The notes under the pieces: generated by a model
The model's database searches: none
What the model was told of the DNA's origin: nothing
What the model saw: only the letters and a program-made list of their open reading frames with translations
Shown: one piece after another, positions 6,855-46,956 of the stretch
Layout: the number at the start of each line of letters is the position of its first letter
Numbering within the stretch: position 1 is the stretch's first letter
NCBI RefSeq assembly: GCF_014635665.1
Contig: NZ_BMDG01000007.1
Span: 62,001-126,000 of the forward strand
DNA: 64,000 nt
Origin: Isoptericola cucumis
GTDB taxonomy: Bacteria > Actinomycetota > Actinomycetes > Actinomycetales > Cellulomonadaceae
Direction: 5' to 3'
Program-made: the position numbers and the translations under genes

Positions 6855-7511
6855 ATGGAGATCGTCGTCGTCGGCAGGCACACGGAGGTGGCGGACAGGT
6901 TCCGCCGTCACGTGGAGGACAAGCTCACCAAGGTCACCCAGCTCGCGCCCCACGCTCGCCGCGTGGACGTGGAGGTCACCCGCGAGAACAACCCGCGGCT
7001 GTCCGAGGTGCGCGAGAAGGTGGAGCTCACCGTCCGGGACAAGGGCCCCGTCATCCGCGCCGAGGCGGCTGCGGACGACCGGTTCGGTGCCCTCGACATG
7101 GCGCTCGACAAGCTCTCCGAACGACTGCGGCGATCGCGCGACCGGCGCAAGGACCACCGCCGCCGCGCGAACGACGTCATGGCCGCCGTCGATGTCCGCC
7201 CCTACGAGGAGGTCGCGGCCGAGACCGCCGCGGCAGCCGAGCCCGCCGTCCTGACGGAGCCCGGCGACGCCGTCGAGCACCAGCTCGGGGACTCTCCGGT
7301 GGTGATCCGCCAGAAGCTCCACCGGGCCGAGCCGATGACGATCGACGACGCGGTCTACCAGATGGAGATGGTGGGCCACGACTTCTTCCTCTTCATCGAC
7401 AAGGAGTCGGCCCGTCCGGCCGCCGTCTACCGGCGCAAGGGCTGGACGTACGGCGTGATCGAGCTGGACTCGCAGGTCGACGGGGTCGAGCCCGTCACCG
7501 AGCTCGTCTGA
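6855..7511 (+). CDS. hpf: Long ribosome hibernation-promoting factor HPF
   Basis: The 218-residue product has an N-terminal RaiA/HPF domain (about residues 1-105, beginning MEIVVVGRHTEV) that binds the 30S decoding centre. An acidic linker leads to the C-terminal dimerisation domain (about 155-215, with DDAVYQMEMVGHDFFLF). Long HPF pairs 70S ribosomes into inactive 100S dimers in stationary phase or hypoxia. GGAG ends 7 nt before the ATG. TAGCCT at 6671-6676 would give an untranslated leader of about 170 nt. A large structured inverted repeat begins 38 nt after the stop and probably forms part of the 3' end. Confidence 0.95.
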   Translation: MEIVVVGRHTEVADRFRRHVEDKLTKVTQLAPHARRVDVEVTRENNPRLSEVREKVELTVRDKGPVIRAEAAADDRFGALDMALDKLSERLRRSRDRRKDHRRRANDVMAAVDVRPYEEVAAETAAAAEPAVLTEPGDAVEHQLGDSPVVIRQKLHRAEPMTIDDAVYQMEMVGHDFFLFIDKESARPAAVYRRKGWTYGVIELDSQVDGVEPVTELV

Positions 7512-7549
7512 CCCTCACAGGCCGCGCCGGCTCGTGTCGGCTCGCGGTC

Positions 7550-7652
7550 CGAGCTGGTCGGGACCTTCGTCGCGGGGACGCGTTCACGGGCGCCAGGGCG
7601 CCCTCCACTTCGGGAGGGATACGTCCCCGCGACGCAGGTCCCGACCAGCTCG
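7550..7652 (+). repeat. Structured inverted-repeat element, copy 1 (41-nt core closed by a 31-bp stem)
   Basis: The left arm (7550-7580) and right arm (7622-7652) are reverse complements over 31 nt with one mismatch. The 41-nt core (7581-7621) opens with CGTTCAC, then forms hairpin GGGCGC-CAGG-GCGCCC, then hairpin CTCC-ACTTCG-GGAG, and ends GGATA. The predicted shape is a three-way junction. A second copy at 40251-40351 keeps the core but has unrelated arms. Core differences are compensatory. It begins 38 nt after the hpf stop. No protein-coding role is supported. Confidence 0.85.
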
Positions 7653-7763
7653 TCTGCTGTCGGTCACCCGCGGTGCCGTGGACTTCTCGTCGCGGAGAAT
7701 CGCTGATCGGCTCGTTCGCCGCGGCTCGTCCTGGCTGTCGGTGGGGGCGGGCAGGATGGCCGC

Positions 7764-8996
7764 GTGGACTCGATCTCGCTCGCCCAGGCCCGCCGGATCG
7801 CGCTGGCGGCACAAGGCCTCGACCGCCCACGCCCGGCCGCGGCGGGGCCGGTCACGATGCGCCGGCTGACGGCCGAGGTGAGCCGGCTCAACCTGCTGCA
7901 GATCGACTCGGTGAACGTGCTCGCCCGTGCGCACCTCGTCCCGCTGTACTCGCGGCTGGGGCCGTACGACGTCGGCCTGCTCGACCGGGCGTCGGGCAGC
8001 GCGCCGCGCAAGCTCGTCGAGACCTGGGCGCACGTGGCGTCGTTCGTGCCGGTCACCACCTACCCGCTGCTCGAGTGGCGCCGGCGCCGCTACCAGGACG
8101 AGGCGTGGGGCGCGATCGCGGGTGCGCCCCTGGCGCACGCCGCCGAGGTCGACCTGGTGCGCGGGATGGTCGCCGAGCGGGGGCCGGTGACCGCCCGCGA
8201 GATCCACGACGAGCTCGAGGCCGCCGGCCGCACCGCGCCCCGCTCGCGGGAGGAGTGGGGGTGGAACTGGACGGTCGCGAAGCGCTGCCTCGAGTTCCTC
8301 TTCTTCACCGGCGAGGTGATGTCGGCGCGGCGCAACTCCGCGTTCGAGCGCTGCTACGACCTGCCGGAGCGGGTGCTGCCGCCCGCCGTCCGCGCCGCCG
8401 GCCCCGTGCCCGACGACGAGGCGGTGCGGCGCCTGCTCGAGCTCGGCGCGCGGGCGCACGGCGTCGGCACGGCCCGCTGCTTCGCCGACTACTTCCGCCT
8501 GCGCGGGCCGGCCGTCAAGCGCGCGCTCGCCGAACTCGTGGAGGAGGGCACCCTGGAGCCGGTGGAGGTCGAGGGCTGGGCCGAGCGCACGTACCGGCAC
8601 CGGGCCGCGCGGCTGCCGCGCCGGGCCACGGCGCGCACGCTGCTCAGCCCGTTCGACCCGCTGGTGTGGGAGCGTCGCCGCCTCGAGGCGCTGTTCGACG
8701 TCTACTACCGCATCGAGATCTACGTGCCCGCGCCCCAGCGCACCCTCGGGTACTACGTCCTGCCGTTCCTCGAGGGCGATGCCGTCACCGCGATGGTCGA
8801 CCTCAAGGCCGACCGGCAGGCGGGTGTGCTGCGGGTGCAGGCGGCGCACGCCACCGCGCACGCGACCGCCGACACCGCGGCCGCGCTCGGCGCCGAGCTC
8901 GACGTGCTCGGCGGCTGGCTGGGCCTGGGCACCACCTCGGTCGCGCCGGCGGGCGACCTGGCGGCCGACCTCGCCGGAGCCGTGCGCGCCGCCTGA
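7764..8996 (+). CDS. YcaQ-family winged-helix DNA glycosylase-like protein
   Basis: The 410-residue protein belongs to the YcaQ/AlkX (HTH_42) family. It shows the N-terminal SLAQARRIALAAQGL segment, the LNLLQIDSVNVLARAH block and C-terminal ARLPRRATARTLLSPFDPLVWERRR. Characterised members unhook DNA interstrand crosslinks and monoadducts; actinobacteria carry many paralogues, including ones that protect antibiotic producers from their own alkylators. QID at about residues 47-49 corresponds to the glutamine-rich active-site region described for this family. The GTG start is the first good start after the inverted-repeat element. The gene stands alone, and function is inferred from family membership. 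Confidence 0.8.
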   Translation: MDSISLAQARRIALAAQGLDRPRPAAAGPVTMRRLTAEVSRLNLLQIDSVNVLARAHLVPLYSRLGPYDVGLLDRASGSAPRKLVETWAHVASFVPVTTYPLLEWRRRRYQDEAWGAIAGAPLAHAAEVDLVRGMVAERGPVTAREIHDELEAAGRTAPRSREEWGWNWTVAKRCLEFLFFTGEVMSARRNSAFERCYDLPERVLPPAVRAAGPVPDDEAVRRLLELGARAHGVGTARCFADYFRLRGPAVKRALAELVEEGTLEPVEVEGWAERTYRHRAARLPRRATARTLLSPFDPLVWERRRLEALFDVYYRIEIYVPAPQRTLGYYVLPFLEGDAVTAMVDLKADRQAGVLRVQAAHATAHATADTAAALGAELDVLGGWLGLGTTSVAPAGDLAADLAGAVRAA

Positions 8997-23473: not shown

Positions 23474-23509
23474 CATGGCACTTCTGCCACGAGTGGCAGA
23501 AGTGCCATG
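23474..23509. promoter_or_regulatory. Perfect 17-bp inverted repeat between small ORF and glxA-like gene
   Basis: Arms CATGGCACTTCTGCCAC (23474-23490) and its complement (23493-23509) flank a GA spacer. Each arm also contains its own palindrome, TGGCA-N4-TGCCA, so it could hold two adjacent dimer sites. It sits 18 nt from the small ORF start and 40 nt from the regulator start. An operator shared by both genes is the simplest reading. Confidence 0.6.
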
Positions 23510-25800: not shown

Positions 25801-25816
25801 GCCGGCGCCTGCCCCC

Positions 25817-25871
25817 CGAGACGACGAAGGGACGGACCGCACCCTGTGCGGTCCGTCCCTTCGTCGTCTCG
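25817..25871. terminator. Long perfect palindromic terminator, 26-bp stem
   Basis: Arms 25817-25842 and 25846-25871 are perfectly complementary over 26 bp around the loop CCT. It lies between the convergent rsrA and bL37 genes and probably ends both transcripts. There is no U-tract, as is common in high-GC actinobacteria. Confidence 0.85.
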
Positions 25872-25889
25872 CCGAGAGCTGGTCTCGGC
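25871..25889. terminator. Second hairpin after the rsrA terminator
   Basis: GCCGAGA and TCTCGGC pair around a 5-nt loop directly next to the 26-bp stem. It is closer to the bL37 stop (25900) and may be the terminator for that gene. Confidence 0.5.
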
Positions 25890-30369: not shown

Positions 30370-30393
30370 GGTCCGGCTCGCCGCCGGGCCGCC

Positions 30394-30447
30394 GCAGAAA
30401 GCCGGGAGGCCACCGCACCATGGTGCGGTGGCCTCCCGGCTTTCTGC
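30394..30447. terminator. 54-nt perfect palindrome (27-bp stem) between convergent genes
   Basis: The sequence from 30394 to 30447 equals its own reverse complement over 54 nt, centred on ACCATGGT. It separates the aldo/keto reductase from the convergent kgd gene and can act in both directions. With no loop, about 4 nt at the tip must be unpaired. Confidence 0.85.
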
Positions 30448-30460
30448 GTCCCGGCGAGGG

Positions 30461-39322: not shown

Positions 39323-40216
39323 GTGGACGCGACGTCGCAGGGTGACGAACCCGCGCTCCGTTCGCGACGGGCCATCCGTGAGGCAGAGCTCGCCAAGGCC
39401 GGCAAGAAGCCCCGTCGCCGCAGCACCCCCACCTCGCCCACCGCGTCCGCCCCGTCCTCGACGGGCGCCACGGCGCGCGCCCGCTCGGCCGCGCGCCACG
39501 CCGCCCCCGCCCCGCACGCCTGGGTGACGCGGGTCGCCGTCCTCGGCTCGCTCGCCGCCGCGACGATCGCCGTCCCGCTCGCCACCGACACCGTGGGTGC
39601 CGACCGCTCGCCGTTCGACCTGGACACCGTGCCGACCGGGCCGTCGACGCTCGCGCTCCTGAAGTCCGGCGTCGACACCCCCAAGACCTCCGCGGCGATC
39701 GCGGCCGCGCCGCGCGACGTCCGCGTCGAGACCACGTCCGCCAGTCGCACCGCCGAACGCAGCCCGTTGCCCGACTGCGACGCCGGCGCGTCGATCGACG
39801 GCGGCAACGGCACCCTCGCGGACCACTCGCTGTGCGACCTGTGGCAGCCGGGGGAGCGGCTGCGCGCCGACGCCGCCGTGGCGCTCAGCGCGCTCAACGA
39901 GGGCTTCCGTGCGCGGTTCGGCCGCGACCTGTGCCTGGTCGACACCTACCGGACCCTGTCCTCGCAGTACGCCGTGAAGGCGAGCCGCGGCTATCTCGCG
40001 GCGGTCCCCGGGGCGTCCATGCACGGATGGGGCCTGGCGATCGACCTGTGCAGCCAGGAGTACAGCTCGAGCGAGGTGTACGGCTGGCTCTGGGAGAACG
40101 GCGCCGCCTACGGCTGGGAGAACCCGCCGTGGGCGCAGCGCGGCGGCTCCGGCAACTACGAGCCCTGGCACTTCGAGTACCGGCCGGGCGTCGAAGAGGT
40201 CTCCTACTGGCACTGA
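39323..40216 (+). CDS. M15 family D-alanyl-D-alanine carboxypeptidase-like protein (VanY)
   Basis: The 297-residue product has a basic N-terminal stretch, a single hydrophobic helix (VTRVAVLGSLAAATIAVPLA, about residues 70-90) serving as signal anchor, a linker and a VanY-type domain. Zinc-site motifs are SMHGWGLAIDLC (His and Asp) and EPWHFEY (His). It would trim stem peptides in the cell wall. Two cysteine pairs in the domain suggest disulfides outside the cell. The GTG at 39323 follows GGAG by 5 nt; GTG at 39320 is equally possible. A structured inverted repeat starts 34 nt after the stop. Confidence 0.88.
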   Translation: MDATSQGDEPALRSRRAIREAELAKAGKKPRRRSTPTSPTASAPSSTGATARARSAARHAAPAPHAWVTRVAVLGSLAAATIAVPLATDTVGADRSPFDLDTVPTGPSTLALLKSGVDTPKTSAAIAAAPRDVRVETTSASRTAERSPLPDCDAGASIDGGNGTLADHSLCDLWQPGERLRADAAVALSALNEGFRARFGRDLCLVDTYRTLSSQYAVKASRGYLAAVPGASMHGWGLAIDLCSQEYSSSEVYGWLWENGAAYGWENPPWAQRGGSGNYEPWHFEYRPGVEEVSYWH

Positions 40217-40250: not shown

Positions 40251-40351
40251 GAGGGGCAGCCGGGTTCCTCCGCGCGGTCGCGTTCACGCGCCCCAGGGGG
40301 CGCTCCACTTCGGGAGGGATACGACCGCGCGGAGAAACCCGGCCGCCCCTC
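40251..40351 (+). repeat. Structured inverted-repeat element, copy 2 (41-nt core closed by a 30-bp stem)
   Basis: Arms 40251-40280 and 40322-40351 are complementary over 30 nt with two mismatches; a 2-nt bulge allows about 5 more pairs outside. The core (40281-40321) matches copy 1 at 37 of 41 positions: CGTTCAC, hairpin GCGCCC-CAGG-GGGCGC, hairpin CTCC-ACTTCG-GGAG, then GGATA. The arms share no sequence with those of copy 1. It lies 34 nt after the M15 stop, in the same orientation relative to its upstream gene as copy 1. Confidence 0.85.
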
Positions 40352-46753: not shown

Positions 46754-46821
46754 CCCCTTCGAGAACGTCCTCACGGACGAAAGTCGGCCTCTTTTCGTCC
46801 GCGAGGACGTTCTCGAAGGGG
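46754..46821 (+). terminator. Long hairpin terminator (29-bp stem, 10-nt loop)
   Basis: Arms 46754-46782 and 46793-46821 are complementary over 29 nt with one mismatch; the loop is gtcggcctct. It lies 23 nt after the transporter stop. Confidence 0.85.
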
Positions 46822-46837
46822 AGAGGGCCGGCCGGGC

Positions 46838-46879
46838 ACGACGAAGGCCGCCGACCTCGAGGTCGGCGGCCTTCGTCGT
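46838..46879 (-). terminator. Perfect 42-nt palindrome ending the tRNA-Arg transcript
   Basis: This 42-nt sequence equals its reverse complement (21-bp stem, centre CTCGAG). It starts 4 nt past the tRNA 3' end on the minus strand and backs onto the transporter terminator. Confidence 0.85.
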
Positions 46880-46883
46880 ACGG

Positions 46884-46956
46884 TGCGCCTGAAGGGATTC
46901 GAACCCCCGACCTTCTGCTCCGGAGGCAGACGCTCTATCCACTGAGCTACAGGCGC
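46884..46956 (-). tRNA. tRNA-Arg (anticodon CCG)
   Basis: The 73-nt minus-strand gene folds as a cloverleaf. Acceptor GCGCCTG pairs with CAGGCGC. The D-arm is GCTCAGTGGATAGAGC. The anticodon stem TCTGC/GCAGA closes the loop CTCCGGA with anticodon CCG, reading CGG. The T-loop is GGTTCGAATCC. CCA is not encoded. It diverges from argS, the gene for its own synthetase, an adjacency also known in M. tuberculosis. Confidence 0.95.

Follow-up and report, generated by a model that had tools for sequence, protein, structure and literature searches.

Two copies of a long palindromic element in a 64-kb window of Isoptericola cucumis (the whole stretch of DNA that was analysed, 64,000 nucleotides) belong to a family that is, on balance, best read as long transcription-terminator hairpins with gene-specific stems, whose tips carry a common folded module of ~41 nt read in trans. 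According to this proposal, each stem would belong to an individual gene, so that unrelated arms are expected, and the hairpin would form at the mRNA 3' end, most likely terminating transcription and/or protecting the 3' end; the identity of the two arms would probably be kept largely by template switching during replication. The tip module would consist of GTTCAC, a 6-bp hairpin and TCCACTTCGGGA, followed by 4-8 variable bases, together with about 10 conserved inner pairs of the stem. Its conservation is proposed to reflect something acting on the tip in trans, the candidate being a factor, most likely RNA-binding, that meets the sense RNA of the tip. Were the tip indeed bound in this way, one 3'-end control handle would be common to dozens of unlinked genes in these actinobacteria, including those for a Crp-type regulator, rpoC, sdhB, glpK and hpf.

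Table 1. Coordinates, within the 64-kb window, of the two capped hairpins, the host gene of copy 1 and the plain hairpins
Feature	Coordinates	Strand	Remarks
hpf (ribosome hibernation-promoting factor), host of copy 1	6855..7511 (start approximate)	+	NCBIfam TIGR00741 over cut-off; Pfam S30AE N and C domains
Copy 1, left arm (locus-specific)	7550..7580	+	30/31 positions pair with 7622-7652; starts 38 nt past hpf stop codon
Copy 1, conserved 41-nt core (tip module)	7581..7621	+	C; GTTCAC 7582-7587; hairpin 1 7588-7603; TCCACTTCGGGA 7604-7615; GGGATA 7616-7621
Copy 1, right arm	7622..7652	+	followed by TCTGCTGTCGGT
Plain perfect hairpin	23474..23509	.	17 pairs, loop 2
Plain hairpin, comparison terminator	25812..25876	+	28/31 pairs, loop 3; 11 nt past stop codon (own reading)
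Plain hairpin, comparison terminator	30391..30450	+	28/29 pairs, loop 2; 21 nt past stop codon (own reading)
Copy 2, left arm	40251..40280	+	28/30 positions pair with 40322-40351; starts 34 nt past stop codon (40214-40216) of gene with VanY domain
Copy 2, conserved 41-nt core	40281..40321	+	two swapped hairpin 1 pairs relative to copy 1
Copy 2, right arm	40322..40351	+	
Plain hairpin	46754..46821	.	28/29 pairs, loop 10; 23 nt past plus-strand stop codon (own reading)
Plain hairpin	46836..46881	.	21/22 pairs, loop 2; 2 nt beyond minus-strand tRNA gene 46884-46956

A sequence-only reading had described copy 1 as a long stem with one mismatch around a 41-nt core, and had traced the four core differences between the two copies to hairpin 1, where two G-C pairs are swapped; both descriptions are correct. 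It had further taken CGTTCAC and GGATA for conserved unpaired bases; the conservation around the junction was confirmed, but the unpaired state was not, the minimum-energy fold weakly pairing GTTC with GGAT. Folding z-scores on the two strands were -8.95 and -8.86 for copy 1 and -7.53 and -8.05 for copy 2, none of these four values being equalled in 200 shuffles. The second hairpin appears in the centroid fold of the sense strand and not in that of the antisense strand, and a C(UUCG)G loop, a stable RNA loop, is possible in TCCACTTCGGGA on the sense strand only. The recurrence of the 16-mer CACTTCGGGAGGGATA, which has two occurrences in the window when up to 3 mismatches are allowed (expected 0.27; equalled in 3 of 100 shuffles), is modest and by itself weak evidence; that the element is real is settled by the family of 142 elements described below, not by this recurrence.

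Within its own genome, the first pattern gave four matches at up to 3 mismatches, and the covariance model six sure copies (E 3e-21 to 2e-17), a seventh match with E 0.04 being excluded from the count. A looser pattern was present in 26 of 221 genomes of the taxonomic family, representing 5 of its 25 genera. The check proposed along with the initial reading (an Infernal model, related genomes and a covariation count) was run with model R1, built from 42 equal-length copies out of the 65 then in hand; strong stem covariation was obtained, and copies were recovered in 30 of 30 selected genomes from 5 genera (1 to 55 per genome), a biased sample of which 29 genomes, all except G142, were already known to be positive. 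Genomes of the same genus range from 2 to 55 copies. At the order level, at least 9 of 396 genomes and at least 2 of 109 genera, both in the same family, contained matches, these counts being floors as ten candidates were scored per genome. The strict pattern retrieved 12 stretches from a genome contig collection, all belonging to Isoptericola, Krasilnikoviella, Puerhibacterium or Myceligenerans, and had 0 matches in viral contigs. Among 394 genomes of the class, matches that look real appear to be confined to the same genus; six one-mismatch matches of the class-wide pattern outside it were dismissed as chance because no hairpin-1 complement was seen by eye and their number was close to that of the control (4). 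Nothing convincing was found outside the taxonomic family in the contig collection, the order sample or the class sample. Beside the gcvP match of G020, a genome of another genus, lies a 32-bp palindrome (L201, 1375-1490) with a longer hairpin 1 and a diverged core-like tip, homologous as judged by eye, and in view of this diverged core the model may miss distant members. The initial reading knew of no fitting named family; at gathering score, the sole Rfam 15 match in the whole window was a tRNA elsewhere, and a permissive scan of positions 7400-7800 gave five matches, all far below gathering, the best over the element being a microRNA model with 18.2 of 79 bits. Twenty loci of unclear context likewise had no Rfam match.

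Placement was analyzed for the 142 non-redundant elements in hand, which are a part of all copies in these genomes. The majority (107) lie 3' of a co-directional gene end, at a median distance of 30 nt past the stop codon; for 53 of them, the gene end on the other side is convergent. Seven elements are only antisense at a 3' end, 17 are within reading frames (11 antisense, 4 sense and 2 open both ways), and 11 were left without placement by a simple coding-signal test. Where genes converge, each of the two may have an element of its own, the two pointing in opposite directions (L010, L011, L015, L047, L050 and L054). Across 100 elements, T accounts for 34% of the 9 nt past the stem versus 15% at +21 to +40, with no true T-run, and A for 5% of the ~9 nt past the stem versus 12%; this T enrichment is weak next to that of classical terminators. 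Intrinsic (Rho-independent) terminators of high-G+C actinobacteria are often U-poor, and the elements resemble them in being GC-rich hairpins mostly 10-50 nt past the stop, with weak T enrichment and often between convergent genes. A stable GC-rich hairpin soon past the stop, in the sense of transcription, was found for the 107 elements mentioned, and the two window copies have z-scores of -7.5 or lower. They differ from such terminators in the stem of ~30 bp and in the sequence-conserved tip, which recurs at dozens of loci although the stems there are unrelated. An earlier context set of 101 host proteins falls into 48 clusters, the largest being of Crp type (14), glycerol kinase (9), RidA/YjgF type (8), isoprenyl transferase (6), SdhB (5), Hpf (4), FKBP (4) and RpoC (3). 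In 43 loci where an upstream protein gene was missing, no tRNA gene was found as host.

Long hairpins lacking the core at the same genes, and their absence from the gene interiors, suggest that the stem is a terminator belonging to the gene itself, on which the core sits as a separate tip. A scan of the window identified seven hairpins of at least 16 pairs, two of them capped by the core and five plain (17 to 28 pairs, loops of 2 to 10 nt). Two of these long plain hairpins adjoin each other at 46754-46881, with a plus-strand gene on one side and a tRNA gene of the minus strand on the other. Orthologous 3' ends were scored by script over 170 nt past the stop, with a hairpin cut-off of at least 14 pairs. 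The 30 crp loci, from 13 genera, comprise 14 with a plain hairpin (at least 16 pairs, loop up to 12 nt), 1 with a hairpin of 14-15 pairs, 4 with a larger loop (including G136, which has a decayed core, and G150), 1 with a core and 10 with none; the corresponding numbers are 14, 4, 3, 5 and 3 for 29 hpf loci, and 9, 2, 0, 13 and 4 for 31 glpK loci, of which a further 2 were without stop and 1 was masked. Long hairpins without an intact core hence occur in 19/30 crp, 21/29 hpf and 11/31 glpK loci, as against 1, 5 and 13 capped ones, and a hairpin of at least 14 pairs or a core is present in 20/30, 26/29 and 24/31 loci, respectively. The same scan found no hairpin of at least 14 pairs in 258 windows inside the crp, hpf and glpK genes. 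The initial view of the 103 nt as a single conserved element finds no support in this form, as coreless long hairpins occupy the same genes in many relatives. Plain stems have mostly 14-26 pairs, and up to 30, versus ~30 in capped ones, a difference expected if the ten inner pairs are the module's own. In glpK, recognisable arms and core are common to seven species, and G144 has the core on different arms; judging from these arms, stem turnover is fast. When the crp hairpin of G150 is aligned with its counterparts in G148 and G137, the 41-nt tip is missing between GGTC and ACGACC, and the arms have further gaps of 1-2 nt; this is the sole clean case with and without the tip found, and either loss or the original state is possible. 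Overall, the outer ~20 bp resemble a terminator-type hairpin that belongs to the individual locus, the shared module is the core plus about 10 inner pairs, and the tip appears separable from the stem. At the hpf 3' end of G142 (L247), the place of the terminator is taken by an imperfect palindrome of very large size; it contains a long G-run, which is perhaps an assembly problem.

Covariation in the stem is very strong. Among 42 sequences (1638 pair cells), 96.2% of pairs are standard versus 65.4% in shuffles, and the covariation score is 0.736 versus 0.161 in shuffles, a value reached by 0 of 500 shuffles and compared with at most 0.142 for slid partners; the structure was hand-set from the same 42 sequences, which favours the score, and the slid controls keep relatedness. 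The suggestion of a structured multi-copy family with compensatory changes is thereby upheld. Changes on both sides occur in 30 of 30 stem pairs and in two pairs of hairpin 1, and in none of hairpin 2; the ten inner stem pairs hold a consensus (CGCGCGGNCG on the left) and the outer 20 hold none. That selection acts on structure cannot be concluded from the arms by themselves. In 130 elements, the 3619 scored arm positions consist of 3532 Watson-Crick pairs, 20 G-U, 41 A-C and 26 other, A-C mismatches exceeding G-U pairs in the sense strand (41 versus 20, p = 0.0099). The arm differences between the 70 closest pairs of elements, which were picked by arm similarity, include some non-orthologues and share members between pairs, amount to 235 double Watson-Crick changes, 11 single changes to G-U, 27 to A-C, 24 other single and 17 other double changes. 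A helix evolving via G-U intermediates should show more G-U, and the ratio of 235 to 11 suits template switching better than RNA selection by way of wobble pairs. According to passages of PMC8794818, a single template-switching step can both generate and mend the arms of a hairpin, and passages of PMC8604942 give spacer inversion between inverted repeats as a known outcome of it. As an account of arm identity, template switching would do no worse than selection for an RNA helix, and the family offers a natural case for weighing selection against template switching in compensatory hairpin change, with 235 doubles and 11 G-U steps countable in one family.

Action of the tip at the RNA level is supported by the orientation of the elements, their distance to the stop, the presence of one element per gene in several convergent pairs and the possible, sense-only C(UUCG)G loop. 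Several observations speak against the proposed terminators with a common tip, among them the weak T enrichment and the 17 elements within reading frames. A purely RNA-level constraint would not predict the excess of A-C over G-U; in 10 of the 30 crp loci, no hairpin reaches 14 pairs; and 55 versus 2 copies in relatives of the same genus, with arms partly shared in the expanded genomes, look like proliferation. In addition, the element is present in gcvP in at least ten cases from four genera, in each of the ten in antisense and just before the C-terminal half, where a terminator for gcvP makes no sense; seven of these copies read as open frames. In one genus (g19), 13 gcvP sequences comprise three with the element, four with an apparent right arm only and six with neither. 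The gcvP tree of this genus, which has no starred branch, mixes element-present and right-arm-only states, and in G189 and its neighbour G190 an arm remnant and the native linker are both kept, as separate stretches. On these two grounds, the idea that insertion duplicated the target in inverted form, considered for the right-arm-only sequences, was set aside; loss is the simpler reading of the scars, and the g19 gcvP sequences are best read as a single old insertion followed by repeated loss. In a glycosyltransferase-like gene, so named from sequence reading, the core has the direction of the gene in G136 and the reverse direction in G144, while the arms on either side are conserved.

A bolder reading, less likely than not, is that of a selfish or co-opted module: the ~41-nt unit would spread by settling in the apices of existing long terminator hairpins, perhaps by template switching via shared inner-stem sequence, adopt the local arms, be able to flip and get lost, and provide many unlinked genes with the same RNA handle, on which a single trans-acting factor would act. 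A mobile tip may survive where terminators already stand, in which case the terminator and mobile readings would both be true together. A small non-autonomous palindromic mobile repeat of REP, MITE or Rickettsia-palindromic-element type, the main rival, placed after genes through tolerance and with an incidental terminator effect, is rather unlikely. It would be in keeping with the in-frame copies in gcvP and the glycosyltransferase-like gene, the apparent loss scars in g19, and the copy number of 2 to 55 within one genus, as well as with tandem units, spaced 74 to 87 nt, in which core and right arm are repeated but the left arm is not (L029, 1500-1650, plus strand; also L030, ~1410-1590, and L047, ~1110-1290, in reverse-strand coordinates). 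Some G135 and G141 copies also have related arms and partly related flanks. In a MITE, the arms would correspond to the terminal repeats, yet here they differ by locus: the outer 18 nt of the left arms have a mean identity of 41% among the six own-genome copies (33% when shuffled), 48% in G141 (42%) and 51% in G135 (39%), values barely above shuffled ones in the own genome and overall unlike conserved terminal inverted repeats, although single pairs in the latter two genomes reach 89% and 100%. Two enzyme types were searched for as partners, and neither the Y1 (REP-associated) transposase (control matched in 5 of 14) nor a reverse transcriptase of retron, DGR or group II intron (control matched in 3 of 14) was found in any of 26 genomes. 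The strong orientation to transcription (107 versus 7) and the retention at the same genes across genera (the glpK core in 13 of 31 loci listed) also stand against a mobile repeat.

Integron attC sites and gyrase/IHF-binding REP elements are examples of folded DNA that is recognised as such, and a single-stranded hairpin or cruciform recognised as DNA rather than RNA would explain the 3532 of 3619 Watson-Crick positions with no preference for G-U, the two orientations inside reading frames and the core inverted between conserved arms. Such a DNA-level site is nonetheless improbable given the orientation relative to the upstream gene, the second hairpin in the centroid fold of the sense strand but not the antisense, and the lack of a recombinase partner in the Y1 transposase and reverse transcriptase searches. 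An independent trans-acting small RNA family or a riboswitch-like aptamer within 3' UTRs, to which the strongly conserved bases around the three-way junction might point, is very improbable considering the functionally unrelated hosts (48 clusters), the absence of an Rfam match at gathering score and the 3' rather than leader position.

Long post-gene hairpins, small palindromic repeats and template-switch hairpins are already known kinds of element. REP/BIME elements are associated with RAYT transposases and conserve the palindrome itself; the present family is similar in that numerous palindromes stand near the 3' ends of genes, at times in inverted pairs, but here the stem varies, the tip is conserved and the Y1 transposase was found in none of the 26 genomes. 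Rickettsia palindromic elements (RPE) are palindromic repeats found in frame inside protein genes, and, judged by description, the in-frame copies in gcvP and the glycosyltransferase-like gene are like them; here, however, most copies follow genes, and the tip is conserved on variable arms. In the uptake-sequence terminators of Neisseria and Haemophilus, the shared repeat forms the stem; both systems have a common repeat built into many terminators, which in the present family is the tip, not the stem. Template-switch hairpins, as described in passages of PMC8794818 and PMC8604942, share the homogenisation of arms, few G-U intermediates and spacer inversion; those passages contain no counterpart of the conserved common tip module. 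A limited survey of the literature recognised no published description of a conserved tip on unrelated terminator stems.

Finally, a different, short repeat, GCGAGTCAGCG, occurs 54 and 78 times in 27 and 29 kb of the G141 and G135 loci, respectively, with no occurrence in the 64-kb window or in 22 kb of the G138, G140 and G147 loci. G141 and G135, rich in GCGAGTCAGCG, are also the genomes with the highest copy number of the capped hairpin.
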